Assembly: GCA_029582155.1 (NCBI GenBank)
Contig: CM055907.1
Coordinates: forward strand, 29,032,432 to 29,096,431
Length of the DNA: 64,000 nt
Source: Panopea generosa
Taxonomy: Eukaryota > Mollusca > Bivalvia > Adapedonta > Hiatellidae
Direction: 5' to 3'
Part shown: positions 300-59,794 of the stretch, in pieces
How the letters are laid out: each line of letters opens with the position of its first letter
Position numbering within the stretch: the first letter of the stretch is position 1
Made by a program: the position numbers and the translations under genes
The notes under the pieces: model-generated
The model's database searches: none
What the model was told of the DNA's origin: nothing
What the model saw: the letters and a program-made list of their open reading frames with translations, nothing else

Positions 300-388
300 G
301 CGTACCAAGCATATCACGATAGCAAAGGAAGATGAACTGTTGGAAGCTAGAAAGATGCAGGAGGCGCTGACAGACTTGAAACAGGAAG
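300..388 (+). CDS. MYO16: MYO16-like exon 1 of window (linker after ankyrin region)
   Basis: Acceptor TTTCAG ends at 299 and donor GTGTGT begins at 389. The exon starts with the last base of a codon and ends one base into the next. It encodes a charged, probably helical segment ([20 protein letters not shown], then EALTDLKQE). The segment has no own domain signature; it is assigned because its phase fits exon 2 and because MYO16 proteins have a charged linker between ankyrin repeats and motor. Confidence 0.65.
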
Positions 389-3300: not shown

Positions 3301-6300
3301 CATGTACTTGTGGAGGGATGGTACATGTACCTGTGGAGGGATGGTACATGTACTTGTATAAGCAAAACTAGACATTTCTCATGTGATCTTATAATCTCTT
3401 TCCAACAGGGTGAAATTGTTCCATGTATGGACAATGACAACCTTGTGTCCATGGCAACAGAAAAAGAGGATGAAATCCTGGCAGAAATACAGCGACGATA
3501 TGCAGCCAGTCAAATTTATGTAAGATTATATGTCTGTAAAGATATTGTTACTAATATAAGAAACAACTTCTTGTCATATGACTTGCCTTCCGCAATTTCT
3601 GTAGGATATCTGTAAAGATAATGTGTTACTAATATTAGAAACAACTTCTTGTCACATGACTTGTCTTCTGCTACTTCTGTAGGATATGGGTATAGATAAT
3701 GTGTTACTAATATTAAAAAACAACTGCTTGTCACATGACTTGTCTTCTGCTACTTCTGTAGGGTATCTGTAAAGATAATGTGTTACTAATATTAGAAACA
3801 ACTTCTTGTCACATGACTTGTCTTCTGTTACTTGTGTAGGATATCTGTAAAGATAATGTGTTACTAATATTAGAAATAACTGCTTGTCACATGACTCGTC
3901 TTCTGTTACTTGTGTAGGATATCTGTAAAGATAATGTGTTACTAATATTAGAAATAACTTCTTGTCACATGACTCGTCTTCTGTTACTTGTGTATGATAT
4001 CTGTAAAGATAATGTGTTACTAATATTAGAAATAACTGCTTGTCACATGACTTGTCTTCTGCTACTTGTGTAAGAGAGTTATTTCTTGCATACAGGATAA
4101 GGATATCTGCATTTGTGACCTTGAGTTGGTTCTGAAATCGTGGTAAACTCTAACACAGCTTCTCAGAGAATTGTAATACTTCTTTCTTCTTTGCGTATAT
4201 TCTTTTATTGATAGGGGAAAATATAGTTCAACTTTGAGTCATTCATTTAAAAAAAAAAATTGTTACATAAAAAAATAAGCTCATTAATCCTCAATATTAT
4301 TTTTAGTTAAACAACTTTTAATCCTATGTTTCAGACATACATTGGAGATGTTTTGATTGCTGTCAACCCATTTAAAGACCTTCACTGTTATGCCAGAGAT
4401 GTAAGTGGTAATACTTATTGTTGTTAACACACAGCTGAAGAGATTGTCAGGAAATTTACATTTTATCTCTGTTTCATTGCTAACTAATTCATTGTTTCGT
4501 CACTTAACATTTTACTTTTATCATTGTTAGCTCTACTGGCCAAAGGCCAGCAGGGCTTATGTCATGGTAAATTGTCAACCATCTGTTGTAATCCATCTGT
4601 TAACCTTTTTCTTGTAGGTGCGATAGCACCTTCATTTTTCATTGAATCTTTATTACGGTAAACTTGGTCAGCAGTTATATTACCATAAGATCTCGGATGT
4701 CATTCGATGACAAATGCCCCCACCACAGAGCTTATAAACACATTTCAAAAAACATTTTCTCTAAAAGTTCAAGGCCTAGATATTTTACATGTAGCATTGC
4801 ATTGAGGTTCTGTAAAAGATTTGTTGAAGTCGGGTTGCCGGGGTCAAATTTGGGGCCACCGCAGGTGTCACTGTTTTACATAGAGTTATATAGGTAAAAT
4901 GTTGTAGACGTGGTAGCACCTTCATTCTTCATTGAATCTTAACCAAACATGCATAGCAGTTATATAACCACACAATCTTGGACAAGTTCTTGAACTAGCA
5001 TGATTTTACCTTCAATACCCCTGCCACAGGGCTTATAAGCACATTTTAAGTAAAATTTAAAAAAACATTTTCTCTGACATTTTAAGACCTAGACCTTAGA
5101 TATTTTACATGTAGCATCTGTTGCAAGTAGAGAGGTCCTCTTGGGCCTCTTGTTGTCTATTGGTACAGTCATTTCACTTCAATTCCAAATCAACCTTTAT
5201 TTCATTGTTTTCCGTTGTGGTGGTTATTTCACTTCAATTTCCTTTTAATCTCTATTTCCTTATTTTTATTGATAACTTCACTTCAGTTTCCAATTTACCT
5301 CTTTTTCATTGTTTTCCAATTGGATTTCACAATCAATTTACATTTAACCTCTATTTTATTGTTTTCACTTTACATTTAACCTCTATTTTATTGTTTTCAC
5401 CTGACATTTAACCTCTATCATTGTTTTCACTTGGCATTTGACCTCTATCATTGTTTTCACTTGACATTAAACCTCTATCATTGTTTTTACTTTACATTTA
5501 ACCTCGATTTTATTGTTTTCACTTAACGTTTAACTTCTTTCATTGTTTTCACTTGACATTTAACCTCTATCATTGTTTTCACTTGACATTTAACCTCTTT
5601 CATTGTTTTCACTTGACATTTAACCTCTATCATTGTTTTCACTTGACATTTAACCTCCTTCATTGTTTTCACTTTATATTTAACCTCTATCATTGCTTTC
5701 ACTTTATATTTAACCTCTATCATTGCTTTCACTTTATATTTAACCTCTATCTTTGCTTTCACTTTATATTTAACCTCTATCACTGTTTGATTGTTTTCAC
5801 TTTACATTTAACCTCTATCATTGTTTTCACTTAACATTTAGCCTCTCTCATTGTTTTCACTTTACATTTAACCTCTTTCATTGTTTTCAATATACATTTA
5901 ACCTCTATCATTGATTTCACCTGTTTGGAAGTGAATTTGAATTGTTTCTTTATTATCAGACATGGATTTCCATATATTTTTCAGCAGAGCCTCGTTCCCT
6001 CGGGATGGAATTGTCTATCCAAACCTCCAACCAATGTAAGATTGTAACAGTATAAACTAACACTCTGTTTCAGATATCTACAAAATATCACTCAGCAGAA
6101 ACCATAGCTGGTCTCCCACCACATATCTATGGCAATTGCCAGATTTCATACCAGAGCATGCTACGTGACAGGAGGTCACAGTGTCATGTGATCTCTGGTG
6201 AGAGCGGTTCCGGCAAGACAGAGACATGTAAATATATTGTACAACATCTGCTTCGAGTGTCAGGAAGTGAAGAGACAAACTTAAACACCAAAATAAATCA

Positions 6301-9300
6301 GGTACAGTAAGGCAAACCAGTTTGTTTCAATATTTAGCCTAATTTTTATGTCATCAAGGGCTAACAGAATATCATTCAAACTAATCACATTTTCCTAGGA
6401 TCCTGAATGGTTAACCAGTGCTGAAGCACACCTTTTTCTGCAAGAAACTGATACCTTTTCCACTTGAATTAGTGGTGAGGGTATCATGGAGACTGGGCGG
6501 GGAATCAAACTTATGACTGCTGTATTGATAGTCAGACACACTACAGAGTGAGCTAACCTTGTCAGATAAATCTGTAAACACCAAAACAAATTGGGTATAA
6601 TAAGGCAAACCTAAATACTAAGAGAAATGGATTCAGACTTGTGAAGACTTAAATTGTATTTAAAAATCAGGCACAGTATTGCTTAGGAAAACCTGTAACA
6701 CAAAAATAAATAGGAATGAAGAGGTTAAATAAGTATCACATACATACTGCTTGACAACCTTCACCTTTCATTCGGACATTTCAAAAATGATCCTTATATA
6801 GGCATGACATATGGAAATATTAAATATTCCAATTTTAAAAGCCTTTAAACTATTGAATAATATAATTACAGGAATTACTATAGTTGCAAGATTTATGTTT
6901 GTCTTATCAATTATTATGCAATTGTTTGCTTTATTTCTTGACATTTGGGTCTATAAAGAAACTGTTAACTTCTGTTTGCATCAAAAAATCTGACTTTTGT
7001 AGAAATAAATAATTCTGACTTGTGTATAAAAAAATGACTTCGGTATGCATAAAATCTCTGAAAACTATCAACTTTTGTGTGCATAAATATATTCTACCTT
7101 TACTTCAAATGACCTTGACACTAGAAGGTTACTGCTGTTCATTTCAGGTGACCTGACACTAGAAGGTTACTGCTGTTTATTTCAGGTGACCATGACACTA
7201 GAAGGTTACTGCAGTTTATTTCAGGTGACCTTCACACTAGAAGGTTACTGCTATTTATTTCAGGTGACCTTCACACTAGAAGGTTACTGCTGTTTATTTC
7301 AGGTGACCTTCGCACTAGAAGGTTACTGCTGTTCATTTCAGGTGACCTGACACTAGAAGGTTACTGCTGTTCATTTCAGGTGACCTGACACTAGAAGGTT
7401 ACTGCTGTTTATTTCAGGTGACCTTGACACTAGAAGGTAACTGCTGTTTATTTAAGGTGACCTTCACACTAGAAGGTTACTGCTGTTTATTTCAGGTGAC
7501 CTTCACACTAGAAGGATACTGCTGTTTATTTCAGGTGAATCCTCTATTAGAAGCCTTTGGTAATGCGGCAACAGTCAGGAACAACAACTCTAGCAGGTTT
7601 GGAAAATACGTACAACTCAACTTTGCGGAGAATGGCAAGGTTGCAGGAGGTAATTTCATTTTATAGATTCATGAATATAATTAGAACTTTCTGCTTTTCA
7701 TTGAGTTCCATTAGATTGAACTCATCACATGATCTTTTTAATACATATTGAAATATATGTGTTAGATAATGGTGCACACGTGTCACTGGGCTTGTGTTTG
7801 CTGCTTCATCTCAATATTTACTGCAGCCATTGGGTTCTGATGGTGCAGTAGTAGTCTTGTATGTAGAAGGTTATGGATTCAATCCTTATGGCCTTATTGC
7901 ATTTTCACTTGATGCTTGGCATGTCTGCCATTTGTCATGTGTCAGTGTTATATTACACAAGTATGGAAGAACAGTATAATACAATAGCAGATGTCAATGA
8001 CATGTTTTCAAAAACTGCTGAAAATGCAATAAACAATATACTTCAGCCAATATCTCAGAGTACCTACTGGAGAAGTCACGTGTGGTGTGTCAAGGGAGTG
8101 GTGAGTGTAACTTCCATATCTTCTACTGGATGATGGCAGGGCTGTCGCACGAAGAAACACTTATATACAAACTACAGAATATGGAAAACTTCAGGTGAGG
8201 GTTTAAAAGGATTTTTTCAAATGTTCAACTATATATTTTATTAGTAGCTAAATCTCTATCTTCTTTCATCAATCCTTTTTTAAGGTTTTCTGAAATGACT
8301 TCTTCTATGAATCTACTGAACAAGTTTTATTTAAACTTGACTTTAAATATATTAAAGTAAAAAATGCATTTTACACTGTATGACATAGATATTCATAAAT
8401 ATGCTAGTGTTACCACAGTTATTCCCCTTTGACAAGTAGAATGTAGTTTAGAGTATCTATACATTTAGATATCATAATAAATATATCATATAGATATATC
8501 ATATAAAATATATATAAATATATCATATAAATATATCTTATGAACATATCTTATTAATATATTATATAAATATATCATATAAAAATATCATATAAAATAT
8601 ATAAAAATATTTCATTATAAATATATCATTTAAATATATTATATGAAACGAAGAAACACTTTTAAACAAACTACAGAATTTGGAAAATCTCAGGTGCCCC
8701 CCCCCCCTCCCCCCCACCCTCCATGTGTCTGGTTTCTGGCATATAATAATTGCAGTGTCTGTCTGTCTGTCCGTCTTTCTGATATTTCGTGTCCGGCCTG
8801 AAACTTTATGCATAGATTGATGTTATTAATACTTGCTACAAATGATCAACATAACATGATAACGTGTCTTGCATAAGACCCACACATGTATCTCATAGGT
8901 CAAGGTCACAATTTAACTTTGTTTGACGACACATTCAGTCTGGGATTTCGTGTCCGGTCTGTAACTTTGTCATGGAAAGATGGATTTGATAAATACTTCC
9001 TACAAAATTATCAACATAACATGACAATGTGTTGTGCATAACACCCAGACGCCCACTTCAAAGGTCAAGGTCACAATGTAACTTCATTGATGACACTTTC
9101 AGTCTATTTGAGATTTCGTGTCCGGTCTGTAACTTTGTCACCTATGGATAAATTTCAAATAATTTGGCTCATTTCATCAGCATAGCATAATGACATATCG
9201 CGTGTAAGACCCACACTCATACCTTAAAGGTCAAGGTCACACTTTGAGTTTTGTATGACAACACTTTTGTTTGAGATTTTGTGTCTGTCCTGTATGTTTG

Positions 9301-12300
9301 TCATGGAAAAACGGATTTCATGATCAACATAACATGATGACATGTTGTGCATAAAACCCAGACTTCCACTTCAAAGGTCTAGTCACATATTTCATAATAA
9401 ATATATCATATAAATATATCATAATAAATGGATCATAATAAGGATATCATATAAATATATCATAATAAATATATCATTTGAATATATTATAATAAATATA
9501 TCATATAAATATATCATAATAAATATATCATTTGAATATATTATAATAAATATATCATATAAGTATATCATAATAAATATATCACAAATATATCATAATA
9601 AATATATCATATAAATATATCATGATAAATATATCATATAGATATATCATAATAGATATATCATATAAATATATCATATAGATATATCATAATAAATATG
9701 TCATATAAATATATCATAATAAATATATCATATAAATATATCATTATAAATATATCATATAAATATATCATATAGATATATCATAATAAATATATCATAT
9801 AAATATATCATAATAAATATATCATATAAATATATCATATAGATATATCATAATAAGTAATATTCATGAAAAGTAATAAAATTGCATTTTTTTCTCTTTA
9901 AACCACTGCTTCAGTTTTCTCCTCCTTCTGTTAAGGATATGACACATGTTTTGTGTTGACATGATACAGTTTTGTATATGTTGTGTTGACATGACACATG
10001 TTTTGTATATACATGTATTATGTTGACATGACATATGTTTTGTATATATTGTGTTGACATGAAACATGTGTGGTATATATTCTGTTTACGTGACACATGT
10101 TTTGTATTGATTGTGTTCACATGACACATGTTTTGTATTAATTGTGTTCACATGACACATGCTTGGTATAAATTGTGTTCACATGACACATGTTTTGTAT
10201 TGATTGTGTTGACATGACACATGTTTGGTATATATTGTGTTGACATGACATATGTTTTGTATATTTTGTGTTGACATGACGCATGTTTGGTATATATTGT
10301 GTTGACATGGCACATGTTTGGTATTGATTATACTCACATGAAAAATGTTTTGTATATATTGTGTTGACATTACACATGTTTTGTATTGATTGTGTTGACA
10401 TGGAACGTATTTGTTATATATTTTATTGTGTTGACATGACACATGTTTAATATATAGTGTGTTTACATGACACATGTTTTGTATTAATTGTGTTGACATG
10501 ACACATCTTTGGTATATATTGTTATGACATGACACATGTTTTGTATTGATTGTGTTGACATGACACATTTTTTGTATATATTGGGTTGACATTACACATG
10601 TTTTGTATTGATTGTGTGGACATAACACATGTTTGGTATATATTGTGTTGACATGACACATGTTTGATATATAGTGTGTTGACATCACACATGTTTTGTA
10701 TTATTTGTGTTGACATGACACATGTTACGTATATGTTGTGTTGGCATGACACATGTTTTATATTGATTGTGTTGACATGACACACATTTGGTATATATTA
10801 TGTTGACATGACACATGTTTGGTATATAGTGTGTTGACGTGACACATGTTTTGCATTGATTGTGTTGACATGACTCATGTTTGGTTTATATTGTGTTGAC
10901 ATGACATGTGTGGTATATATTGTGTTGACATGAAAAATGTTTTTTGTTGACATGACACTTGTTTTGTGTGGACATGACACATGTTTTGTGTTGACATGAC
11001 ACAGTTTTGTATATATTGTGTTGACATGACACATGTTTTGTGTTTACATGACACATGTTTGGTATATATTGTGTTCACATGACACATGTTTTGTATTGAT
11101 TGTGTTGACATGAAACATCTTTGGTATATATTGTGTTGACATGACACATGTTTTGTATTGATTGTGTTGACATGACACATGTTTTGTATATATTGTGTTG
11201 ACTTTACACATGTTTGGTGTATAGTGTTCTGACATCACACATGTTTTGTATTATTTGTGTTGACATGACACATGTTTTATATTGATTGTGTTGACATGAG
11301 ACATGTTTGGTATATATTGTGTTGACATGACACATGTTTGATATATAGTGTGTTGACATGACACAGGTTTTGTATTGATTGTGTTGACATGACTCATGTT
11401 TGGTATATATTGTGTTGACATGACATGTTTGGTATTTATTGTGTTGACATGAAAAATGTTTTGTGTTGACATAAAACATGTTTTGTGTTGACATGAAACA
11501 TGTTTTTTGTTGACATGACACATGTTTTGTATATATTGTGTTGACATGACACATGTTTTGTGTTTTCATAACACATGTTTGGTATATATTGTGTTGACAT
11601 GACACATGTTTTGTATTGATTGTGTTGACATGACACATGTTTTGTATATATTGTGTTGCCATTACACATGTTTGGTATATAGTGTTCTGACATCACACAT
11701 GTTTTGTATTATTTGTGTTGACATGACACAGGTTTTATATTGATTGTGTTGACATGAGACATGTTTAGTATATATTGTGTTGACATGACACATGTTTGAT
11801 AAATAGTGTGTTGACATGACACATGTTTTGTATTGATTATGTTGACATGACTCATGTTTGGTATATATTGTGTTAACATGAAAAATGTTTTGTGTTGACA
11901 TAACACATGTTTTGTGTGGACATGACACAGTTTTGTATATATTGTGTTGACATGACACATGTTTTGTGTTTACATGACACATGTTTGGTATATATTGTGT
12001 TGACATGATACATGTTTTATATTGATTGTGTTGACATGACACATGATTGGTTTATATTGTGTTGACATGACACATGTTTGGTATATAGTGTGTTAACATG
12101 ACACATGTTTTGTATTGATTGTGTTGACATGACTCATGTTTGGTATATATTGTGTTGACATGACATATTTGGTATATATTGTGTTGACATGAAAAATGTT
12201 TTATGTTGACATAACACATGTTTTGTGTGGACATGACACATGTTTTATGTTGACATGACACAGTTTTGTATATATTGTGTTGACATGACACATGTTTTGT

Positions 12301-15300
12301 GTTGTCATGACACAGTTTTGTATATATTGTGTTGACATGACACATGTTTTGTGTTGACATGACACATGTTTTGTATTGATTGTGTTCACATGACACATGT
12401 TTGGTTTATATTGTGTTGACATGACATTTGTTTTGTATATTTTGTGTTTACATGACACATGTTTTGTGTTGACATGACACAGTTTTGTATATATTGTGTT
12501 GACATAACACATGTTTTGTGTTGACATCACACATGTTTGATATATATTGTGTTGACATTACACATATTTTATATTGATTGTGTTGACATGACACATGTTT
12601 GGTATCTATTGTGTTGATATGACACATGTTTGGTATATAGTGTGTTGACATGACACATGTTTTGTATTTATTGTGTTGACATGACTCATGTTTGGTATAT
12701 ATTGTGTTGACATGACATGTTTGGTATATATAATGTTGACATGAAAACTGTTTTGTGTTGACATAACACATGTTTTGTGTGGACATGACACATGTTTTGT
12801 GTTGACATGACACAGTTTTGTATATATTGTGTTGACATGACACATGTTTTGTGTTGACATGACACATGTTTGGTATATATTGTGTTGACATGAAATTTGT
12901 TTTGTATATTTTGTGTTTACATGACACATGTTTTGTGTTGACATGACACAGTTTTGTATTTATTGTGTTGACATGACACATATTTTGTGTTGACATGACA
13001 CATGTTTTGTATATATTGTGTTGACATGACACATGTTTTGTGTTGACATGACACATAATCATAATGTAACTTATCATTTATAAGTTGATGTTGATATGTA
13101 GTCCTGTTGTTACAGATACCTTGTCTCCACCTTTACTGACTCAGAGGCAAACAACAACGGATCAGATAACAAGGCCAAGTTCTGGGAAGTGAAAGAATGC
13201 CTAAAGTCCATTGGTTTCTCATCTTCGGTAAACATTACTTTGTATATTTTCCTTTTTAGTCTCAGCTATTTGAAGAAAGATGAAGTGGCATTAATCGTTA
13301 CATCTGTCTTTTTATCTATTTGTCTGGCCAAGTGCACTTTCAGCAGCTTAGGTGAGAGGAGGTATGGCCTAAAAGTGTAAGGGTTAGTTAGTTCCTCCAG
13401 TGGTTTTATAAGTACCACTTAAGGTAAATACCATACGGACATCCGTGCATCTCATGTCTGTAAGTCAGAAGTGTTTGTATGGACCTTATCAAACAACATT
13501 TCTGTGTTCAGTCATTCAGTTCAAAACTCCATCTCAAGGTCACTTACCCCTCACCACTGAGGTCATGAGTTCTGTGGTCAGTCAATCAGTTCAAATCTCC
13601 ATCTCAAGGTCATTTACCCCTCACCACTGAGGTCATAAGTTCTGTGGTCAGTCAGTCAGTTCAGATCTCCATCTCATTGTCACTTACCTTTTACTACTGA
13701 GGTCATGAGTTTTGTGGTCAGTTGATCAGTTCAGATCTCCATCTCAAGGTTACTTACCCCTCACCACTGAGGTAATGAATTCTGTGGTCAGTCAATCAGT
13801 TCAAATCTCTATCTCAAGGTCACTTACCCCTCACCATTTAGGTCATTAGTTCTGTGGTCAGTCAATCAGTTCAGATCTCCATCTCATTGTCACTTACCTT
13901 TTACCACTGAGGTAATGCGTTCTGTGGTCAGTTGATCAGTTCAGATCTCCATCTCAAGGTCACTTACCTCTCACCACTGAGGTCATGAGTTCTGTGGTAA
14001 GTTAATCAGTTCAAATCTCCATCTCATTATCACTTACCTTTTACCACTGAGGTCATGAGTTCTGTGGTCAGTTGATCAGTTCAAATCTCCATCTCATTGT
14101 CACTTACCTTTTACCACTGAGGTAATGAGTTCTGTGGTCAGTCAATCAGTTCAAATCTCCATCTCAAGGTCACTTACCCCTCACCACTGAGGTAATGAGT
14201 TCTGTGGTCAGTCAATCAGTTCAAATATCCATCTCATTATCACTTACCCCTCACCACTGAGGTAATGAGTTCTGTGGTCAGTCAATCAGTTCAAATCTCC
14301 ATCTCAAGGTCACTTACCTTTTACCACTGAGGTCATGCGATCTGTGGTCAGTTGATCAGTTCAGATCTCCATCTCAAGGTTACTTACCTCTCACCACTGA
14401 GGTCATGAGTTCTGTGGTCAGTCAATCAGTTCAAATCTTCATCTCAAGGTCACTTACCTCTCACCACTTAGATCATGTGTTCTGTGGTAAGTTGATCAGT
14501 TCAGATCTCCATCTCAAGGTCACTTACAGCTCACCACTGAGGTCATGAGTAAGAGCCCCAAGATCAGTGAGAATGTTTGCCAGTTACTTGTGGTAGGATG
14601 CTCATTCTACTTAGATTCATTCTGAGGTTTTCCTAGGGTGGCATAATAAAACATTATAAAAACATTAAACCCAATTAAAAACAAAACCAATAAACACCTT
14701 AAAGGTATCAGATAAAGCAAAATGTTGAACAAAACAGATAATTCTGCTTACAGGATATACAAAATATGATGTTGACGGTGTCCACGGTTTTACACTTAGG
14801 GGAGATAACCTTTCACGGTGTGGGCAATAATGATGCAGCCCAAGTTACCAACATTGATGTCCTCAAGAAAGGTAGGTAGTCTTTAAATTTATGAACATTT
14901 TATTTTTATGAGCTTAAGAGTACCGGTACTTGTTTTCTTATTACCTGAATAATTTAAAAATAAATAAACAGATTAGAAACCATTTATTTTATTTGACATA
15001 TAAGCATAAAAAATGTATATTACATTGGTTATAAGCGACTGTGTAAACATTCTGATGTGATTGAATAGTATGATGTTAGATTTGAATGTTTAGCATCATT
15101 TATATGCCATTGAGAGCTAACAAATGAGCTGGAAGGTCAACTAATGCTTGAGCACACCCATCTCCGCAAGTGAATTATTATTTTCTCACTTGAATCAACA
15201 GTGAGAGACAAATGACAATTAGACGCAATACCATATAGCAATCATCGGACCCGGAGAATAGAACAAAAATGTGATCATAGGAATTGTCTTCATAGCAAAC

Positions 15301-18300
15301 AATTATAATGTAATAACACATCACCGATTTTTCTGTTTATGCCATGGTTTGTGATTACTGGCGTCTGTCTGTCAGTCAGTCAGTCTTTAAACTTTTGTTT
15401 ATAAGTGACACTGCCCTGAAACTTTCGGCTGGATTTCCATGAATCTGAAACCTTACTGATCATAATGCTTTAAGGTGTAATTCTGCATGTAGCTACCAGA
15501 AATGAAATATCAGGTAATTATAATGAATTGAAATAACCAGTGAGATTTTTTTTTTTCTGATGAATATCTTTTATTCCATGTAAGACATAATACATGTACA
15601 ATGTTATACAGACACTGTTCATGTATCAATACAAGCTATATAATTTCTTAACACATTACAAGATAACTTTAGATAAAATAACATACCGGTACATACAATA
15701 TCTTACAAGTTATATTTTAAGAGTGAATATAAAATAAAATATTAAAAACTGATAAAAGAGTGTAGAGAAAGAGCAAAGATAAGACAAGTAGAAATTTACA
15801 GTTGAGAAGATGAGAAGCTGTGTTCAGTATAGTTTTCGTTATTATAGTTTACATGATTCCCAATTTATTTTTGTGTGACCTAAGTTCGTTTGTAGCTCGG
15901 CTATTCGGAGAATAAAGAGAGCTATTCTACTCATCACGGCGTCAGTATCAGCATCGGCGTCCCACTTTGGTTAAAGTTTAATATGCAAGCCCTTTTCTCA
16001 GTAGCCATTGCATGTATTGCCTTGAAACTTTACACAAGCCTTCTTAGTCATTACCCATACCACAATAACTAAGTTAGATAACTCTTGCATGAATATTATA
16101 CAAATTATTGTCCTTGTTTGATTTAGAAATTGTGGTTAAAGTTTTGCATGCAAGTCCCTATCTCAGTAACCATTGCATGTATTGCCTTGAAACTTTACAT
16201 AAGCCTTCCTAGTCATCAACCCTACTACAATAACTAAGTTAAATAACTCTAGCATGAATATAATACAAACTATTGCCCTTGTTTGAATTAGAAATTCTGA
16301 TTAAAGACCCTATTTCAGTGACTATTGCATGTATTGCCTTGAAACTTTACACAAGCCTTCCGTGTCATCAACCCTACAACAATAACTAAGTTAGATAACT
16401 CTTGCATGAATATTATACAAATTATTGTCCTTGTTTGATTTAGAAATGGTGGTTAAAGTTTTGCATGCAAGTACCACCAAGTCCATTTCACCAACCACTC
16501 AATATATTTGATTGAAACTTTACGCAAGTCTTCCCAGTCATCAACCCTACTACAATACAGACCCTAAACTGCTCAAGTACCCCAATTGCACCAAACAGAG
16601 TGCACTCTGAGCGTAAATGTAGTGCAGATGGAGCGCGAACTGAGCGCAGATTGAGTGCTGACGGAGCGGACCTGGACCGTTATCGAACGCTGGATTTTGA
16701 ATAATAAATGCACTACTGAATGCATGAAATAGATCGAGTGCACTCAGACACGCTGAGTGCACTCAGATATGCTGAGTGCACTCAGATGCGCAGTATATGC
16801 ATTATACGCTAGACACAGTAAGATAACTGATAACTTAACTACAGACCCTAAACCGCTCAAGTACCCCAACTGCACGCAAACAGAGTGCACTCAGAGCGTA
16901 AACGGAGCGTGAACGTAGCACAGACAGAGCACGAACAGAGCGCAGATTGAGCGCTGACGGAGTGGACCTGGACCGTTAGCGAACGCTGGATTTTAAATAA
17001 TAACGCGCTCCTGAACGCATGAAATAGATCTGTGCACTCAGATGCGTAGTATATGCATTATACGCTAGACACAGTAAGATAACTGATAACTAAAGTATTC
17101 GTGCGCTACTGAGTGGACTCGTTCATTCGGATACACTCTTCTTTCATTATTTGAGCGTGAAGTCAATAATCAAAATCGAGATAAGTAACATATTTTCTGT
17201 ACACATAAATATAAACCATGTAGTATATATAAATGTTTTTTGGTATAACGCATGATAAAACTAATTTTGGTCAACAATTTGTCAATTATATCATAAATAT
17301 CAATATTGAGCTAATCAATATAATAAAGTTTAAAAACCTATTATACAATAGACGACGCATCAATGGTTATCTATGGTTTCAAGGCAAATTTAGTTGCACA
17401 TTTAAACATGATTTGGTTTGCGCAACAAAAATATAAATAAATTTATATATTATGTAAATAACAATTCGAAAATATGTAATATGAAATCACTATTTGCCTT
17501 GCTATTTCAATATAAATTAGTTATAGAACATACAGAACATATATTTCAATTGGATTTAAGCGTACACAGCTCTAAACACAAAAAAAATCAATGCATTTGT
17601 GAATCAAACAAAACATAGATATGTGGAAAATTATATGATTATGATTCTATTTGTTTGAGTATTTTGGTAAAATAAAAATTACCCATTTTAAATTCAAGTT
17701 ACAAACATAGTTACACCGAGTCTGTGCGTAGTTGTGATAAAATGCATGTAAAACTGTTATATTGTAATTAAAGTGAAAACAGTATACTCGTGCACATCTC
17801 ATTAAAATATGAAAATAAAAGTACCAAATTAATATCATTCTTGAATATAAAGTGGGTCAGTAGTGCAGTGGATAGAGCTGGCTTCAGATGGTAGAGGTCA
17901 CGAGTTTGACCCGCGATCTACCTATGACCTCTCGAAACACAATTCAGTACCAGATCTCATAAAGGAATGCACTGGAGAATGATATGCATAAGCTCCGAGC
18001 TTGCTTCACAATCAAGCTAAATTAAATTAATGTAAAATAAATGTATGTATGCCAAAACAACAGGCAGAATAATAATGATAATAATAATATTATGAAAAAA
18101 TTTGTGTTTTTTTTAGTATTGATTTTGACTATTTATTTCTTATTGAAACACATGTCATGGGTTAAATTAAGATTCATTTATCTGGTACAAATTATAATCA
18201 AAATACACGCACGCACATATCCAATATAAAAACTGTGACAAATCAAGAAGTCAATATATATCTCTTATGATAATAATATTAAAAAAAAAAATAAAACAAA

Positions 18301-24300: not shown

Positions 24301-27300
24301 ACGTTTGACAATCAATTCACGGGTTGTGAATTTGAATCCCCATCCAGATGCAATTTCCGTGATGATTGATATACAACATTGCATCTCATTGTCAGTCCTC
24401 TCTTACTGCTGTTTCAAGTGGGAAAGTTATCAGTTACTTGAAGAGATGGGTTTGCTCAAATACTGGTAAACCTTGCAGGATCCCAGCGAAAAGTTAACTG
24501 ATTGCCTAGCTAGCTGTTTGCCCCTGATAGCATAAATTGACGCTAAATAAACGATACCGTACTGGTCAATACAAACTCATGTACTTAGAAATGCTTTATT
24601 TTGTCACTATGACAGGTGCAGATGACCACTTTTATTGTAAGCCACATTTCAATTATTGAGTTATTAATTCCGTAAGCTGTGCAGAGTGATGTATCTTCCA
24701 GCTTATGTCTGCAATAGTACATGTTTCATACTATTTAAAACAGAGGTCAGAATATGTTATAAATCTGGTAATATTTGAATGAGGTCAGAGGGGTGTATCC
24801 ATATTGTTATTGTGAAAATGCAAATGATCTTATTATTGGAGCTAACTGTGATAATGATTTCCTTACAAAGAAATACAGTTATGGCACTCAGTGCAGCCAG
24901 TAACACGCTATATACATTACACACAGTACAGCCAGTAACACTCTATATACAATACACTCAGTACAGCCAGTAACACTCTATATACATTACACTCAGTGCA
25001 GCCAGTAACACTCTGTATACCCTACAATCAGTACAACCAGTAACACTCTATATACAATACACTCAGTGCAGCCATTAACACTCTATATACATTACACTCA
25101 GTGCAGCCAGTAACACTCTATATACATTACACTCAGTGCAGCCAGTAACACTCTATATACAATACCCTCAGTGCAGCCAGTAACACTCTATATACAATAC
25201 ACTCTGTACAGCCAGTAACACTCTATATACATTACAGTCAGTACAACCAGTAACACTCTATATACATTACACTCAGTGCAGCCAGTAACTCTCTATATAC
25301 AATACACTCAGTATAGCCAGTAACACTCTATATACATTACACTCAGTGCAGCCAGTAACACTCTATATACACGACACTCAGTACAGCCAGAAACACTCTA
25401 TATACATTACACTCAGTGCAGCCAGTAACACTCTATAAACATTACACTCAGTGCAGCCAGTAACACTCTATATACATTACACTCAGTGCAGCCAGTAATA
25501 CTCTATATACAATACACTCAGTGCAGCCATTTACTCTATATACAACACACACAGTGCCGCCAGTAACACTCTATATACATTACACTCAGTGCATCCAGTA
25601 ACACTCTATATACATTACACTCAGTGCAGCCAGTAATACTCTATATACAATACACTCAGTGCAGCCAGTAATACTCTATATACAATACACTCAGTGCAGC
25701 TAGTAACACTCTATATATATTACACTCAGTGCAGCCAGTAACACTCTATATACTACACTCAGTACAGCCAGTAACACTCTATATACAATACACTCAGTGC
25801 AGCCAGTAACACTCTATATACAATACACGCAGTGCTGCCAGTAACACTCTATATACATTACACTCAGTACAACCAGTAACACTATATACAATACACTCAG
25901 TACAGCCAGTAACACTCTATATACAATACACTCAGTGCAGCCAGTAACACTCTTTATACAATACACTCAGTGCAGCCAGTTACACTCTACATACAATATA
26001 CTCTGTACAACTAGTAACACTCTTCATACAATACACTCAGTACAGCCAGTAACACTCTATACATTACACTCAGTGCAGCCAGTAACACTCTATATACACT
26101 ACACTCAGTACAGCCAGTTACACTCTATATACAATACACTCAGTGCAGCCAGTAACACTCTATATACATTACACTCCGTACAGCCAGTAACACTATATAC
26201 AATACACTCAGTAAAGCCAGTAACACTCTATATACAATACACTCAGTGCAGCCAGTAACACTCTATATACATTACACTCAGTGCAGCCAGTTACACTCTA
26301 CATACAATACACTCTGTACAACTAGTAACACTCTTCATACAATACACTCAGTACAGCCAGTAACACTCTATATACAATACACTCAGTACAGCCAGTAACA
26401 CTCTATATACATTACACTCAGTGCAGCCAGTAACACTCTACATACAATACACTCAGTAGAGCCAGTAACACTCTACATACAGTACATCTGTACAGCCAGT
26501 AACACTCTATATACAATACACTCAGTGCAGCCAGTAACACTCTACATACAATACACTCAGTACAGCCAGTAACACTCTACATACAATACACTCAGTGCAG
26601 CCAGTTAACTCTATATACAAAAGACTCAGTGCAGCCAGTAACACTCTATATACATTACACTCAGTGCAGCCAGTAACACTCTATATACAATACACTCAGT
26701 ATAGCCAGTAACACTCTATATACATTACACTCAGTGCAGCCAGTAACACTCTATATACATAACACTTAGTGCAGCCAGTTACACTCTATATATAATACAC
26801 TCAGTGCAGCCAGTAACACTCTATATACATTACACTCAGTGCAGCCAGTAACACTCTTTATACAATACACTCAGTGCAGCCAGTTACACTCTACATACAA
26901 TACACTCAGTGCAACCACTAACACTCTACATACAATACACTCTGTACAGCTAGTAACACTCTTCATACAATACACTCAGTAGAGCCAGTAACACTCTATA
27001 TACATTACACTCAGTGCAGCCAGTTAACTCTATACACAATAGACTCAGTAGAGCCAGTAACACTCTATATACATTACACTCAGTACAGCCAGTAACACTC
27101 TATATACATTACACTCAGAACAGCCAGTAACACCCTACATACAATACACTCTGTACAGCTAGTAACACTCTTCATACAATACACTCAGTAGAGCCAGTAA
27201 CACTCTATATACAATACACTCAGTAGAGCCAGTAACACTATATATACATTACACTCAGTACAGCCAGTAACACTCTACATACAATACACTCAGTAGAGCC

Positions 27301-30300
27301 AGTAACACTCTACATACAGTACACTCAGTACAGCCAGTAACACTCTTTATACAATTCACTCAGTACAGCCAGTAACACTCTACATACAATACACTCAGTG
27401 CGGCAGTTAACTCTATATACAATATACTCAATGCAGCCAGTAACACTCTATATACAATACACTCAGTACAGCCAGTAACACTGTATATACAATACACTCA
27501 GTACAGCCAGTAACACTTTATATACACTACACTCAGTGCAGCCGGTTACACTCGTCATACAATACACTCAGTACAGTCAGTAATACTCTATATACAATAC
27601 ACTCAGTGCAGCCAGTAACACTCTATATACAATACACTCAGTTCAGCCAGCAACACCCTATATACAATACACTCAGTACAGCCAGTTACACTCTATATAC
27701 AATATAAAAGATGTGACAAAAAAATGTCAAGACTTATTTCACAATAAGGAAAAAACTATATTTGCATTTTATCACCAGCAGAAAAAACAAACAATAACAT
27801 GATAATATAAACCGATAGTAAAAATTTGATTATTTAAAATTTCAGCTAATTTTGTTCAAGAAAGATATGAGAAAGCCATACTGATAAAAAATGCTGCCTG
27901 TAATATTATTAGCATTATTATTTGCATGTGTGTTGCCTTGTGCATGTTGTGTGATGGGATGCATGTTTGAATCTCCAGGAGAGCAGATTAAGAAGGAACG
28001 GACAGTTCAGCGTGCTGAGGACTGTAGGGATGCCCTTGCCAAGACCCTGTATAGCCGTCTGTTCAGCTGGATTGTTAATGGCATTAATCAACTCATCCAG
28101 CCAGCTGATGAACAAGGGTAAAACCACCTGACTTCACCTTATATCATACAAAACACTTTATCTGCATACTGTATTCCCTAAAATAAACACGCTCACCAAC
28201 ACCACCAGTTTGAGTCCAAGAAATCAATTTTTGCTTAAGGACAAACCTGCAAACGGTTACTGTCACTTTAAGGTTAAGTAATGGTAATGTGAATTGTTTT
28301 GTTTGGTGAAAGAATCATCCAACAAGATAGTTTGTAACACACTTCAGAAGAAAAAAAATCATAGAAGTGAAAATTCAAATGAAACTGATGACACACAACA
28401 GACAGAACATATCTTGACTATTTTTCATCAGATTTTGAAGTGAAAACTGTTTTGAACAACTAAATTTGGTTAAAAAAAAGGAAGAACAGGTGCAGAAACC
28501 TGTACCACTAATATAAATGTGATGTGTTATAGAACTCCAGTAGTGGCAGTTACCTGTTGTAGATATAGTATAAGCTGCTCACACCAGAGGTTGCAGGTTT
28601 GATAACCTAAAAAAACAACACTTTGTACTGGTTTGGCCCGGTAAACGAACTGAAACAAACTAAAACCATATCAAATTTACAAAAAAACAAGTGATGGCCA
28701 CTATGTTTTCCTTGAAATCTATTGTCAGTATTGTATATACATGAACCTGGCAGTCTGCATGTGCATGTGATTGGATGAACATTTGTGCTATATGTCTAAA
28801 ATTATACAAATTAAATAAAATTTATGTTTATAAAATGCATGCACTGTAGTGTGACATCATGTTTTTTCTCAGAAGATAGTATATCAGACTTATACCCACA
28901 AAAGTTGCTGTTTTTTTGCATGATATTAATTAATTAGTTATATTTCTTTATTTCATCAGGAATGAAATGCAGATTGGGATACTGGATATATTCGGATTTG
29001 AAAATTTCCCTCATAACAGTTTTGAACAGGTATAAACTTTTCTGATGTAGAATTTTTGTTAATTTTCAATACATGGGAAGAAAAAATCCATGATTATGAT
29101 TATACCATTTTAATGGAGTACCGTATATATATAATATAAATTTGGCCATTTAGGATATCAGTTTGTGCTGGTTCTCGAACCAGATGTTTAGCCTGGATTT
29201 GCAATTAGGTCCTTAAAGCTTTACTTAAGGAACACTAACTTGTGTAGTTTTGAATAGGTTCATACCAAATACTAGAAAAATGGTACTAGAAGCTTCCACG
29301 CTTAATGCTTAGCATTTGAGGGTAGTTAAAGTAGGGGTATCATATCATGTGTCTGCTACAATATACTCCAGTGTGGGTATCATACCATGTGTCTGCTACA
29401 ATATACTCCAGTGTGGGTATCATACCATGTGTCTGCTACAATATACTCCAGTGTGGGTATCATACCATGTGTCTGCTACAATATACTCCAGTGTGGGTAT
29501 CATACCATGTGTCTGCTACAATATACTCCAGTGTGGGTATCAAATCATGTGTCTGCTACAATATACTGCAGTGTGGGTATCATACCATGTGTCTGCTACA
29601 ATATACTCCAGTGTGGGTATCATACCATGTGTCTGCTACAATATACTCCAGTGTGGGTATCATACCATGTATCTGCTACAATATACTGCAGTGTGGGTAT
29701 CATACCACGTGTCTGCTACAATATACTCCAGTGTGGGTATCATACCATGTGTCTGCTACAATATACTCCAGTGTGGGTACCATACCATGTGTCTGCTACA
29801 ATATACTGCAGTGTGGGTACCATACCATGTGTCTGCTACAATATACTCCAGTGTGGGTATCATACCATGTGTCTGCTACAATATACTGCAGTGTGGGTAT
29901 CATACCATGTGTCTGCTACAATATACTCCAGTGTGGGTACCATACCATGTGTCTGCTACAATATACTCTAGTGTGGGTACCATACCATGTGTCTGCTACA
30001 ATATACTGCAGTGTGGGTACCATACCATGTGTTTGCTACAATATACTCCAGTGTGGGTACCATACCATGTGTCTGCTACAATATACTCTAGTGTGGGTAC
30101 CATACCATGTGTCTGCTACAATATACTCCAGTGTGGGTACCATACTATGTGTCTGCTACAATATACTCCAGTGTGACAGCACTTAGAATACTGTCTCAAG
30201 TAGACACTGCTGCAATATGAACAATTATTGAAGTGATGCTAAACACCATACAACAACAAATTAGTTTTGAACAAACTTGACAAGCGTTATCAAGTGTAAG

Positions 30301-33300
30301 TATACAAATGATTTTAGTGCCTCTGACCTTCCAAGCAGCTACATATATAGTTATTTGTACATAGTAGATGTTGTAGTTACTTGTCTGAATTCTTAAATAG
30401 TGTTTGATTTAATAGACAGCTGATTTAATGCATTAAAATTGCAAACAATTTTATTTTAATATTTGACATAATAGTGTGAATGCTAAGAAATTGCTCCAAA
30501 GTCACTTACATCAATGGCATGAATATTTTTCTTTTGCAGATGTGTATAAATGTAGCCAATGAGCAGATCCAGCTCTACACCAATGATAACATCTTTTATA
30601 AAGAGCAGCAGGATTGTTTGTTAGAAGGTGTACCATTGGTCGATCTGAATTATGCCAGTAACCAGGCTATTCTGGATCTGTTTCTTGAGGTATAGTAACA
30701 AAACAAGTTGTCTTCTGAGGTATAGTAACAATACAAGTCGTCTTCTGAGGTATAGTAACAATACAAGTTGTCTTCTGAGGTATAGTAATAATACAAGTTG
30801 TCTTCTGAGGTATAGTAACAATACAAGTTGTTTTCTGTGGTATAGTAACAATACAAGTTGTCTTCTGAGAAATAGTAACAATACAAGTTGTCTTTTGAGG
30901 TATAGTAACAATACAAGTTGTCTTATGAGGTATAGTAACAATACAAGTTGTCTTCTGAGAATATTAACAATAATATTTGTCTTCTGAGGTATAATAACAA
31001 TACAAGTTGTCTTCTGAGGTATAGATACAATACAAGTTGTCTTCTGAGAAAAAATAACTATACAAGTTTTCTTCTGAGGTATAGTAACAATATAAGTTGT
31101 CTTCTGTGGTATAGTTACAATACAAGTTGTCTTCTGAGGTATAGTAACAATACAAGTTGTCTTCTGAGGTATAGTTTCCTGAGAATAGTAACAATACAAG
31201 ATGTCTTCTGAGGTATAGTAACAATACAAGTTGTCTTCTGTGGTATAGTAACAATACAAGTTGTCTTCTGAGGTATAGTAACAATACAAGTTGTCTTCTG
31301 AGGTATAGTTACAATACAAGTTGTCTTCTGAGAATAGTAACAATACAAGTTGTCTTCTGAGGTATAGTAACAATACAAGTTGTCTTCTGAGAATAGTAAC
31401 AATACAAGTTGTCTTCTGAGGTATAGTAACAATACAAGTTGTCTTCTGTGATATAGTTACAATACAAGTTGTTTTCTGATGTATAGTAACAATACAAGTT
31501 GTCTTCTGAGATATAGTAACAATACAAGTTGTCTTCTGAGAAATAGTAACTATACAAGTTTTCTTCTGAGGTATAGTAACATTACAAGTTGTCTTCTGTG
31601 GTATTGTTACAATACAAGTTGTCTTCTGTGGTATTGTTACAATACAAGTTGTCTTCTGGGGTATAGTAACAATACAAGTTGTCTTCTGAGGTAAAGTAAC
31701 AATACAAGTTGTCTTCTGAGTTATAGTTACAATACAAGTTGTCTTCTTAGGTATTGTAACAATACAAGTTGTCTTCTGGGGAATAGTAATAATACAATAT
31801 GTCTTCTGAGGTAAAGTAACAATACAAGTTGTCTTCTGAGGTATAGTAACAATACAAGTTGTTGTCTGAGGTATAGTAATGATACAAGTTGTCTATTGAG
31901 GTATAGTAACAATACAAGTTGTCTTCTGAGGTAAAGTAATGATACAATTTGTCTTCTGAGTTATAGTAACAATACAAGTTGTCTTCTGAGGTATAGTAAC
32001 AATACAAGTTGTCTTCTGAGAAAAAGTAACTATACAAGTTGTCTTCTGAGGTATCATAACAATACAAGATTTTTTCTGAGGTATAGTAACAATACAAGTT
32101 GTCTTCTGAGGTATAGTAACAATACAAGTTGTCTTCTGAGGTATAGTAACAATACAAGTTGTCTTCTAAGGTATAGTAAAAATACAAGTTGTCTTCTGAG
32201 AAATAGTAACTATACAATTTGTCTTCTGTGGTATAGTTACAATACAAGTTGTCTTCTGAGGTATAGTTACAATACAAGTTGTCTTCTGAGGTATAGTAAC
32301 AATTCAATATGTCTTCTGAGGTAAAGTAACAATACAAGTTGTCTTCTGAGGTATAGTAACAATTCAAGTTGTCTTCTAAGGTATTGTAACAATACAAGTT
32401 GTCATCTGAGGTATAGTTACAATACAAGTTGTCTTCTGAGGTATAGTAACAATTCAGGTTGTTTTCTGAGGTATAGCAACAATATAATATGTCTTTTAAG
32501 GTATAGTTACAATACAATATGTCTTCTGAGGTATGGTTACAATACAAGTTGTCTTCTGAGGTATAGTAACAACACAGTTTGTCTTCTGAAGTATAGTAAC
32601 AATACAAGTTGTCTTCTGAGGTATAGTAACAATACAAGTTGTCTTCTGTGGTATAGTAACGATGCAAGTTGTCTTCTGATGTAAAGTTACAATACAATTT
32701 GTCTTATGAGGTATAGTTACAATACAAGTTGTCTTCTGAAGTAAAGTAATAATACAATTTGTTTTCTGAGGTATAGTAACAAAACAAGTTGTCTCATGAG
32801 GTAAAGTAACAATTCAAGTTGTCTTCTGAGAATAGTAACAATACAATTTGTCTTCTGAAGGATAGTAACAATACAAGTTGTCTTCTGAGGTATAGTTACA
32901 AAACAATTTGTCTCATGAGGTATAGTAACAATTGAAGTTGTCTTCTGAGAATAGTAACAATACAATTTGTGTTCTGAAGTATAGTAACAATAAACTTGTC
33001 TTCTGAGGTATAGTTACAATACAATTTGTGTTCTAAAGTATAGTAACAATACAAGTTGTCTTCTGAGGTATAGTTACAATACAATTTGTCTCATGAGGTA
33101 TATTAACACTACAAGTTATCTTCTGAGGTATAGTTACAATACAAGTTGTCTTCTGAGAAATAGTAACTATACAATTTGTCTTCTGAGGTATAGTAACAAT
33201 ACAAGTTGTCTTCTGAGGTATAGTTACAATACAATTTGTCTTTTTTAAAAAGAATCCAAAAGCGAGGTCAGCAAGCTAGGTGAATAGAGATGATTTTGGT

Positions 33301-36300
33301 AAAATAGGTGAAGAGTGGCATGTCCACCAAATAACCATCAGAATGATTGGTAAAATAAAATTTTTGGGTCAATTTGCACCATTCTTCACCTAAACAAACC
33401 AGACTAAAATAATAAAGACTTTCCCCCCAATGTTTGATAAGTTTGAATAGGTGACGCTACAGCTCACTGAACTGTGATAAAAAATTGTGTGCAACGGGGA
33501 AAGACCCCAGGACAGACCATTTTTTTTTTTTTTTTCTTCCACAGTTCAAATTTATTAAAATTTCGTACTCGACAATAACAATATAAAACATAATCTATGC
33601 AATTTTCATTGATATATATCGCAATAATGAGCACATAACATCCTATATACTAACGGTTGTTCATGTCAAATTACCAAATAAATACTACGTCTCTGATCCC
33701 CCGCTCGCAATACAAGAAAATAAAGGACAGACTATTCATGAAATGGAAATGTCAGACAGTCACAGGAATATATCTTCTTTAAGTCTTATCTGTAAGTTGT
33801 AAAAACGCTTTTTGACCCGGTGGGTAGCAGAAAGTTGCAGCACTAAAGGAAGACCAATGAAAATCAATGACACAATAATCAAGCGAGTTCAAGGCAGACC
33901 ATCATCAATGCAGACCATCATCAATGCAGACCATCATCAAGGCAGACCATCATCAAAATAAATCATTCATGCAAAATTTCTTACTGAAAATGTATCAATG
34001 TCTTGTGTATGTGTGAAGTGTGTATCTCTTTGAGAAGAACTAATAAATGATGTCAATATATTATTAATGATGTTACATAACCTGGGCCGTAAAGCAATGT
34101 AACCTCGCATTGTGGTTTTGTCTGTAAAGTTCACATTTTTATGTATATGTTGACATTTTAATGATAAATGATTATACTATCAAAATATCAAGTTTTTAGA
34201 TTTCAGTATGTGTCATTAAATCTGCACAGTATTAACCTTTTATATGCTCTTTTGTGACAACCTTCTATACATATAAAAGTAACAACAAGTATTTTGGACA
34301 GAATTTAATCACTTTTATAGTAAAAATAAAAAATCAAATAATCATTCATGGTAACATTGTTATAAGTCAGCTATTTATTTTATTTACAGAAACATACAGG
34401 GGTGTTGGGGATCTTAGATGAAGAGAGTAACTTCCCGAAGGCTACAGATAAATCCTTGGCCACCAAACTTCACCAAAACTCTGGTATAAATAAAATACTG
34501 ACAAACTGTCAGGTCATCCAAACTTCACCAAAACTCCGGTATAAATAAAATATTGACAAACTGTCAGGCCACCAAACTTCACCAAAACTCTGGTGTAAAT
34601 AAAATACTGACAAACTGTCAGGTCATCCAAACTTCACCAAAACTCCGGTGTAAATAAAATACTGACAAACTGTCAGGCCACCAAACTTCACCAAAACTCT
34701 GGTATAAATAAAATACTGACAAACTGTCAGGTCATCCAAACTTCACCAAAACTCTGGTGTAAATAAAATACTGACAAACTGTCAGGTCATCCAAACTTCA
34801 CCAAAACTCCGGTATAAATAAAATACTGACAAACTGTCAGGCCACCAAACTTCACCAAAACTCTGGTGTAAATAAAATACTGACAAACTGTCAGGTCATC
34901 CAAACTTCACCAAAACTCCGGTGTAAATAAAATACTGACAAACTGTCAGGCCACCAAACTTCACCAAAACTCCGGTATAAATAAAATACTGACAAACTGT
35001 CAGGTCATCCAAACTTCACCAAAACTCTGGTATAAATAAAACACTGACAAACTGTCAGGTCATCAGCACAAAACAAAAGTGTCTCCACATAGGCTTTGAA
35101 AGTACTAAAGAGAATTTTATAAAACTCCTTAAAATTAGAAGGTGTTTAGTATTCAAAAATTAGGTCTGTACCTCAAAAGTCAAGGTCACATTTGGCAGTA
35201 ATGGTCAGATATGTAAAATAAAATCATGTCTCCATCGTAACTTACAGCTGGTCATTAAATCAGTCAGAATTGTTTCTAAGTTTTAACTGTGAAGTTAATG
35301 GAGGAAACGTCATGTAACATCACACAAATATTAAGTAAAATTATATTTATTAATATAAACATTTTGATATTAAGTCAGCATTTTAATTAGATGTACTTTG
35401 GTACCAAAATGAATACATTCAGACAATAGTTTGGAGAGTTTATAAACAACTGCTAAATTTCCCATTTGCTATTTTGGCACTAAATATAATGTGGTTTTTA
35501 GCTTCCCATAGGTATAACTTAGTCCCACATAACATATAAGGATTTTTGCCATTTAATTAATGTGCAAAATTTCAATACAACCCTTAGGTAGAGGTGAAAT
35601 TCATGTCATAAAATGCATGGGCTATTACGACTTCACACTTCTCTGTGACACTTTATCAATATATTTGTTTAGAAAAACAAAAATCTCTGTGACAATGCAA
35701 CAAAAGGAATCAGTCATAAATATACAATTGAGATAATGAAACTTTCGGTATCGGCAACCTCATCAGAGCCTCAATTCTGATAATAAAGGTGAGATCTCTG
35801 TTTTGAATATATTATCTCAATCTCATTAAGCATGAAAGATTCTTATACTCTCTTTAATTCATAGTATTACATGTATCCTCAATATGTCCACATGTATACT
35901 TCAATTTACCAAGAGATTAATAAGAACTAATTGTAATAAAAAACTTGCAGTACATTTCATAGTGTCCAAATTCAGTCCAGTGAGAATGGAATGTTCTCTC
36001 AGATATGTTTTTACTCTTTTTTTCTGGGGTTTGAGCATTTACATGTATTTTGACATTTGTTTATTTTTGTGTGTATCTTCAGGGAAGAAACATAGTGAGT
36101 ATTACAAGACGCCCAAAGATGGCGGGCTGTGCTTCACAGTGATACATTACGCAGGTAGTGTGTCCTATAACGTCACCGGAATGTTGGAGAAGAACAGAGA
36201 TACTCTGCCTAACAGTGTCTTGTACACAATGAAAAGTAAGTGTAGGCGGTGACACAACACTAGTATTTACAGTTAAACCTGTCAGTTTATATTTTACACC

Positions 36301-39097: not shown

Positions 39098-39165
<68 letters not shown>

Positions 39166-45610: not shown

Positions 45611-45639
45611 GTGAGTGTCCGCTGCAGCATGTTTTTCTT

Positions 45640-47670: not shown

Positions 47671-47874
47671 AGACTATATTTTTACCTCAGTTACGTTGTA
47701 CATGTATATGATGTTGTTGTTGTTGTATGGTGTTAAGCGTCGCTTTCAACAATTTTTCAGTCATATCGCGATGGTGTCTACATGTATATGAAAGTATAAG
47801 AAATATCTCTTATAGTTTGGGTGCAATATAATTGTTGTGACAAAACATATGATGTCTAGTCAATACTGACTGTA

Positions 47875-49481: not shown

Positions 49482-49694
49482 CAAGGTGATCAGAAAGTTC
49501 ATAGACTTTTGCCATAATTTATTTATATCAATTATACAATGCACAATGGTGTTTTTGTATTTGAAATTATTAAGAAAAAAAGGCACTATTCAAAGCATAG
49601 CAGTTAGATATGTTGGGGCAAATTGATGAAGCCGTATTAAACAAAAAACGACGTCAGTATTTTAAACAGGTGCTTTTGTATCAAATGTACTGAG

Positions 49695-49880
49695 TCACTC
49701 CTTCTCAAAATACTGTCCTCCATGGTCTATACATTTTCGCCATCATTTACAACATTCAGTGAGCATGTTAACAAAATCAGAAGAAGGTATACTGGACACA
49801 AAGTTCTGTAAAACATTCTTTGATTCCAATATGTCTTCAAATCGACTTCCCATTTGCTCTTTTTTAATGACTGATTCCTG
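49695..49880 (-). pseudogene. Mariner transposase C-terminal remnant
   Basis: On the minus strand this reads KKEQMGSRFEDILESKNVLQ, then NFVSSIPSSDFVNMLTECCK, an in-frame stop, WRKCIDHGGQYFEKE and a stop. The spacing of MGSRFEDI, FV..L and W.KCI..GG.YFE is that of mariner-family transposases near their C-terminus. The catalytic region is absent, lost or removed by the nested insertion. It is inactive. Confidence 0.8.
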
Positions 49881-49983
49881 GCTATCTCAAAAACATTAAT
49901 TTTGTGGCATTTAAACATAAGAGACCTTGAAATATAAGATGCACCGTACATACTTTTGTTTCTCTCTTTGAGCAGGTGTATTA

Positions 49984-52055: not shown

Positions 52056-52514
52056 TACCTAACATGGAACAGAACTTCATGGAACTGCGGTATTTCTCGT
52101 GCTAATCTATTTTCAAGTGCCCCAATGTCATATTGTTTCAAACAAAATGGCATACTGTAACATCATAATATTGACGTCATTTTGAGATGCGCATAATTGG
52201 TGCCATTTTTTTAAAAGATGTAAACAAGCATCGATACAGCATACATTGATATTTTTTATCTAAAAATAAAATGCGTTTTAGTAATGCTACGCTTGTTCGA
52301 ATAGTAGAGGTAGGAAAAAAGCAAAAACTGCCCCAACTACGTAAATCGACATTTCCATAGTTACTATGGAATATAAACTAATGATGAAAAATTATTAATT
52401 TTTTGCAAAATTACTGCAAATATATAGTGGCACAGGCTCCCTGAGAATTATTAGAATACAATGATAAATAAAAAAGTTATTGCAAAAGTCTACAAACTTT
52501 CTGATCCACCCTCA

Positions 52515-55379: not shown

Positions 55380-55515
55380 TTTTGTAAGTCCCTTTGAGTC
55401 TGTTTCTTTGGTTGAACCAGTAGTCTATAGTTTATGACATTGTGCTGACAGCTGGGATTGAACCTGCAACCTCTGGCCTGCAGAACCCCCAACACCCTTT
55501 TGTCCTCAGGTAGGG
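55380..55515 (-). mobile_element. tRNA-headed SINE head, minus strand
   Basis: In reverse complement: GGCCAGAGGTTGCAGGTTCA ATCCCAGCTG (B box). An overlapping minus-strand frame has no recognisable motif. Confidence 0.55.
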
Positions 55516-59790: not shown

Positions 59791-59794
59791 AGCC

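Follow-up and report, generated by a model that had tools for sequence, protein, structure and literature searches.

Minisatellite copies of splice junctions in a MYO16-like gene of the bivalve Panopea generosa

Minisatellite tandem duplications of exon-intron boundaries, named 'mirages', have been described in amphioxus in Adh3, the globins BflGb6 and BflGb9, PGBD5 and TnC; they lie on the donor or the acceptor side, with units of 10-160 bp that carry AG/GT signals (PMC3087553; PMC3902484). In amphioxus the repeats of a cluster are also reported to evolve in concert, the copy at the boundary being exempt; mirages reportedly leave regular splicing intact and vary in length among alleles or tissues. 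The human IFI6 (6-16) minisatellite contains multiple splice donor sites, with alternative donors supplied by its downstream repeat units (PMC4526556). An intron of the potato RdRp gene was gained via a duplication crossing an intron-exon boundary, and multiplied 24 bp exon segments were found in fission yeast (PMC4974935).

The initial annotation of the DNA studied here, which knew of no described system of this kind, has to be amended on this point, the amphioxus mirages and the human IFI6 donor minisatellite being already described. A title by Turri from 1995 names a minisatellite with multiple splice donor sites in human 6-16. Our literature search, with most subscription papers outside its reach, found no molluscan report of such arrays.

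The MYO16-like gene and its junction-spanning copies

The window, that is the whole stretch of 64,000 nucleotides that was analysed (C14:29032432-29096431, in a genome of 1.47 Gb and 39 contigs), holds a portion of a single + strand gene, with 21 and probably 22 exons. A Myosin_head match (E 2.6e-197) marks the predicted product as a myosin motor, and the best among at least 120 homologs are bivalve ankyrin-repeat proteins, some of them named myosin-XVI; identities of the best homologs among those listed are 60% (Potamilus), 61% (Sinanodonta) and 54% (Ylistrum). By these similarities the gene is identified as a bivalve MYO16-like unconventional myosin.

300..59845, + strand: MYO16-like exons 1-22 with their introns, exon 22 being a candidate
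59793-59845, + strand: candidate exon 22, proposed from frame and splice signals only

Exons 1-21 (300-45610) form a single open frame, with GT-AG in every intron. A separate spliced alignment, which covered introns 4-20, reproduced the ends of each of these introns from at least one of the orthologs P0001-P0003, with errors where the chain missed an exon (exon 4 for P0001, exons 19-20 for P0002 and exon 8 for P0003). Junction 3 is placed by the open frame and by a gap-free alignment in 4/5 orthologs. The conservation of exon ends, scored at most six residues from the junction in five orthologs, showed that junctions 5 (9-13 of 13 matches), 10 (9-10 of 12) and 13 (9-11 of 13), all gap-free, are well conserved. 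Junctions 14 (5-8 of 12, gap-free) and 3 (4-10 of 13, with a gap in P0006) are moderately conserved, and junction 7 is not, with only 0-5 matches and gaps in P0004 and P0006. At junction 18 the alignments of P0003 and P0006 are gapped.

The 40 nt on each side of every junction were compared with the rest of the same intron, and copies were retained when they spanned the junction with a score of at least 36. Such a copy was found at 6/22 donors (introns 3, 5, 7, 10, 13 and 14) and at 1/22 acceptors (intron 5, exon 6). At the donors of introns 3, 10, 13 and 14 and at the intron 5 acceptor the copies form arrays, in which the homologous decoy sites number 6 to 64. For the donor of exon 5 there is a single diverged copy, and likewise for that of exon 7.

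3513..4072, + strand: intron 3 array, 78 bp unit, ~7 copies, starting ~7 nt inside exon 3, with 6 weak homologous decoy donors
6564..6611, + strand: single diverged copy in intron 5 of the exon 5 end (29 nt) and 17 nt of intron 5, 40/48 identical to its source at 6273-6318
7099..7538, + strand: intron 5 array, 39 bp unit, ~11 copies, ending 4 nt inside exon 6, with 10 decoy acceptors
8654..8696, + strand: single copy in intron 7 of the exon 7 end and its donor, 38/43
20352..22501, + strand: intron 10 array, built of units of 61 bp and 25 bp, with 21 nt of exon 10 and 41 decoy donors
30681..33242, + strand: intron 13 array, 30 bp unit, ~85 copies, starting 4-9 nt inside exon 13, with 64 near-equal decoy donors
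34458..35064, + strand: intron 14 array, unit of ~54 bp (109 by TRF) holding 26 nt of exon 14, with 10 decoy donors
39097..39282, + strand: intron 18 CTGT/TCTC microsatellite starting 3 nt past the donor; it contains no copied exon and is left out of the junction counts

The copies that the initial annotation had placed at splice junctions are therefore real: its arrays starting at the authentic donors of introns 3, 10, 13 and 14, its array ending at the authentic acceptor of intron 5 and its single copy in intron 7 were all recovered, and the intron 5 donor copy, absent from it, is added here. Copies of the array donors extend over -7..+38 in intron 3 (38/47 with gaps), -21..+40 in intron 10 (57/61), -9..+40 in intron 13 (47/49) and -26..+40 in intron 14 (66/66), so that the 21-26 exon bases claimed for the units of introns 10 and 14 hold. 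The exon 6 acceptor has a copy of 43/44, in which the exon share is only 4 nt, GTGA. Another donor of the MYO16-like gene, 43 kb upstream of the window (-43190), also has a copy (-11..+40, score 92); an upstream acceptor (-23322, copy score 83) was left uncounted, its junction being uncertain.

Exon 6 was considered as a possible source of the whole intron 5 unit: local alignment gave P = 0.21 and the ungapped register 13/29 (P = 0.02), with only GTGA shared firmly.

An origin of the unit from the exon is weakly indicated for three arrays: that of intron 3, a gapped match with 7 nt of exon, that of intron 13, with ~8 nt, and that at the intron 5 acceptor, with 4 nt. These few shared bases, together with the lack of conservation of junction 7, would suit an order of events in which the array came first and the exon edge was recruited from it later. 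Against this order, alignments with five orthologs are gap-free around the exon ends of junctions 5, 10 and 13 and the units of introns 10 and 14 contain 21-26 nt of motor-domain exon, and we hold it to be highly unlikely. Since the exon ends are conserved at junctions 5, 10 and 13, and moderately at 3 and 14, the exon probably came first in most cases. Arrays are also hard to assemble, and array copy numbers may be wrong in the assembly. That the pattern itself is an assembly artefact is scarcely credible: the copies are not identical (on average 0.89-0.95 to their own consensus), the pattern is seen at several loci, and the contigs measure tens of megabases.

The locus holds further repeats. 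Intron 20 contains a stretch of ~3.7 kb (41291-45030) with inverted ends CAGACCCTAAAC...GTTTAGGGTCTG that looks like a DNA transposon, and two more forward copies of its end lie in intron 9 (16558 and 16842). In intron 21, the stretch 49484-52513 lies between two arrays of one 29 bp unit (47888-49483 and 52514-53560). It has inverted ends (49488 and 52482), as though a single array had been split by an element, and encloses a second inverted pair (49984 and 52030). Remnants of a reverse-transcriptase-like frame were seen by eye further on in this intron (57000-58100), and so was, in the intron 15 array (36700-36740), a short piece that repeats the array unit in inverted orientation. The intron 8 array (13500-14550) holds CACTTACCTCTCACCACTGAGG, the reverse of the GTGAGAGGTAAGT motif present in several arrays of chromosome C1, and they perhaps belong to one dispersed family. 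The intron 18 CTGT/TCTC repeat (39097-39282) touches its donor with no exon copy.

Chance expectation at the locus and in other genes

Arrays are dense throughout the region, with a coverage of 42% in the window, 41% upstream and 44% downstream. The 27 arrays, typed from 38 TRF clusters after eight short or weak ones and three of intron 22 were dropped and with the intron 10 start set to the donor, cover 44% of intron bases. Their random placement within their own introns gave a mean of 2.36 junction touches, 1.18 of them at donors. At least four donors (introns 3, 10, 13 and 14) were touched with P = 0.023 and at least five, with intron 18, with P = 0.0033; five or six touches were observed in all, with P = 0.065 for at least five and 0.018 for at least six. 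All P values from the window are post hoc, because the window was chosen for its junction arrays. Judging a junction preference from the window alone was abandoned, as random placement already yields 2.36 touches and the window cannot decide.

A stricter, matched test was then applied, counting a copy with its outer edge 4-60 nt away on the exon side, in targets of 1.4 kb, which replaced 3 kb because short loci needed to be comparable. For the MYO16-like gene it included 21 window introns and two upstream, and the intron 7 copy fails its rule. The donors gave 6/22 (-43190, 3, 5, 10, 13 and 14) vs 112/2764 random intron points (4.1%; P = 2e-4), these points being 25 nt apart and hence non-independent, and the acceptors 1/21 vs 109/2764. 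The earlier version with 3 kb targets gave 6/23 donors vs 14/497 and 1/23 acceptors vs 26/497 random points. The MYO16 donors exceed their own background, in a gene that was picked for looking so.

Outside the MYO16-like gene, the samples comprised the top 30 of 91 dynein matches, four myosin loci plus 16 of 81 myosin matches picked by hand, and 16 of 126 kinesin matches, also picked by hand; exon edges in the dynein loci and in the matched test were chosen by score. We found junction copies at three myosin donors, one kinesin donor and one myosin acceptor.

L012 (myosin), donor: 41 bp unit of 31 nt exon and 10 nt intron, five copies
L057 (myosin), donor: 34 bp unit, of which at least 16 nt are exon
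L060 (myosin), donor: one diverged copy
L073 (kinesin), donor: 43 bp unit, 21 nt of it exon, ~30 copies
L014 (myosin), acceptor: 44 bp array ending ~10 nt inside the exon

L012 also has a diverged acceptor copy with a score of 34, under the threshold. No copy reached a score of 30 in the 30 dynein loci, though 14/30 hold arrays. In the matched test, 0/30 donors were positive in the dyneins, 1/26 in the four myosin loci, 2/16 in the additional myosins and 1/16 in the kinesins. The resulting 4/88 donors, where n = 88 is an upper bound since L062 and L065 have no clear donor, compare with 104/4319 random intron points (2.4%), P = 0.17; the acceptors gave 1/52 vs 65/3433 (1.9%), on a background that leaves out L046-L077. 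For L046-L077 the donors were read by eye from the best copy only, which could hide a weaker spanning copy. The preference of arrays for junctions that had been proposed is consequently not borne out by the other genes, whose donors and acceptors behave like random intron points. The 95% interval of 4/88 is 1.3-11%, with which a modest donor preference outside the MYO16-like gene is compatible. The MYO16 donors (6/22) differ from donors elsewhere with P = 0.004, in a comparison for which MYO16 was picked for its look.

These counts bear on the proposal that tandem duplication is seeded preferentially at splice donors, for example through transcription-coupled breaks or slippage at AG|GT. The 6/22 MYO16 donors against 4.1% agree with it, as do, more weakly, the 5/90 donors outside the window (one upstream MYO16 donor included) vs 2.4%, with P = 0.07; the 4/88 of other genes and the absence of a signal at acceptors speak against it. 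Triple arrays of AGGTAAGT in the genome number 4270, vs 1597 for the reversed motif, which would also point to donors; this count was rejected as evidence, being inflated by matches that overlap within arrays and by what is apparently a single dispersed repeat family, several arrays of chromosome C1, to which the array listing is confined, looking by eye like one tRNA/SINE-like repeat. We consider donor seeding unlikely on this balance.

Origin of the arrays

The units span the junction and include part of the exon, as is clearest in introns 10 and 14, and the seed was therefore a duplication across the junction, as the initial annotation had proposed. The arrays are best read as the result of tolerated tandem duplication, with the hot-spot and the functional readings kept alongside. 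They are mirage-type minisatellites: a segment straddling the junction was duplicated to the intron side, once in introns 5 (donor) and 7, and into arrays of ~30-80 bp units at one acceptor and four donors within the window. In this likely explanation, such duplications are tolerated because splicing keeps to the outermost copy, which exon definition would favour and which, for donors, is also the first transcribed. The inner copies would then stay intronic and multiply like other intronic minisatellites, and the crowding in MYO16 may represent the upper tail of a genome-wide load (41-44% of the locus), with no dedicated junction-seeking process. The excess of MYO16 donors over their own background (P = 2e-4) and over other donors (P = 0.004) counts against the tolerance reading.

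Exon definition is the basis from which the outermost-site rule was reasoned, and a literature search on this rule found nothing. That the authentic site is always the outermost one, as first noted, follows largely from geometry, because an inner copy that was used would itself be the exon edge. If the real donor is skipped, an in-frame stop is reached in introns 3, 10, 13 and 14 and also in L012 and L057; the use of an inner site would therefore be harmful, and the outermost would have to win nearly always.

The strength of the decoys was scored with a matrix trained on the own sites of the MYO16-like gene, which makes the scores partly circular. The 64 homologous donor copies of intron 13, mostly ~30 nt apart, exhibited a mean of 8.2 compared to 8.7 for the real site, the 41 of intron 10 a mean of 7.8 (real site 8.9), the 10 of intron 14 a mean of 4.5 (real site 5.4) and the 6 of intron 3 a mean of 2.5 (real site 6.4). 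In the intron 5 array, the 10 acceptor copies score from 9.1 to 13.5, and four of them equal the real site, whose 13.5 is the top score among 22 acceptors.

U1 snRNP guards long introns from early polyadenylation. The arrays might hence be functional, as ladders of donors that bind U1 snRNP in long introns against early polyadenylation, or as decoy or recursive splice sites. The 64 near-equal donors of intron 13 would fit such a role, and so would the intron 5 units, every one of which couples an acceptor to a donor-like GTGA start; given that the intron 3 copies are weak and that arrays off the junctions are equally common, we judge it very unlikely. It is also doubtful, to about the degree of donor seeding itself, that donors are hot spots of tandem duplication in this lineage which produce ladders of equal-strength donors, hidden from selection by the preference for the outermost site until one is recruited; they would supply new exon ends or introns and perhaps U1 platforms in long introns.

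The intron 10 unit, the sole one tried, has 19 genome matches, all at its own locus, in a search that can miss common words; an introner-like or dispersed element would have its unit in many places, and this is not what was seen.

Comparison with described systems

Such repeats were met in our literature search only in amphioxus and, partly, in one human gene, and the present case extends them to a mollusc, on a larger scale and in several genes. With its 64 near-equal donors, intron 13 is a ready test case for the choice that the spliceosome makes when many sites are near-identical, and it also bears on how intron gain by duplication might begin.

As in the potato RdRp gene, the duplication carries splice signals; a new intron arose there, whereas the copies lie within an existing intron here. 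As in human IFI6, donor sites at the exon edge are supplied by repeat units. The downstream units serve as alternative donors in IFI6; the inner sites here are known from sequence only, and their use would often meet a stop.

The resemblance to the amphioxus mirages is closer. Tandem repeats span the exon-intron boundary in the same way, at the donors of introns 3, 10, 13 and 14 and at the acceptor of intron 5, with a small exon share in 3, 13 and 5. Donor and acceptor boundaries are both duplicated (six donors and one acceptor, of 22 each). Unit lengths of 30-78 bp (for intron 14, TRF gives 109) lie in the range of 10-160 bp, and the units include the splice signals. In introns 13 and 14 the boundary copy deviates more from the consensus than the copies do on average; in intron 10, L012, L057 and L073 it does not. 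Unlike the amphioxus cases, the present one, read from the genome sequence alone, comes from a mollusc and has seven junctions in one window and up to 64 decoys; it is a large molluscan case of a known kind of repeat.
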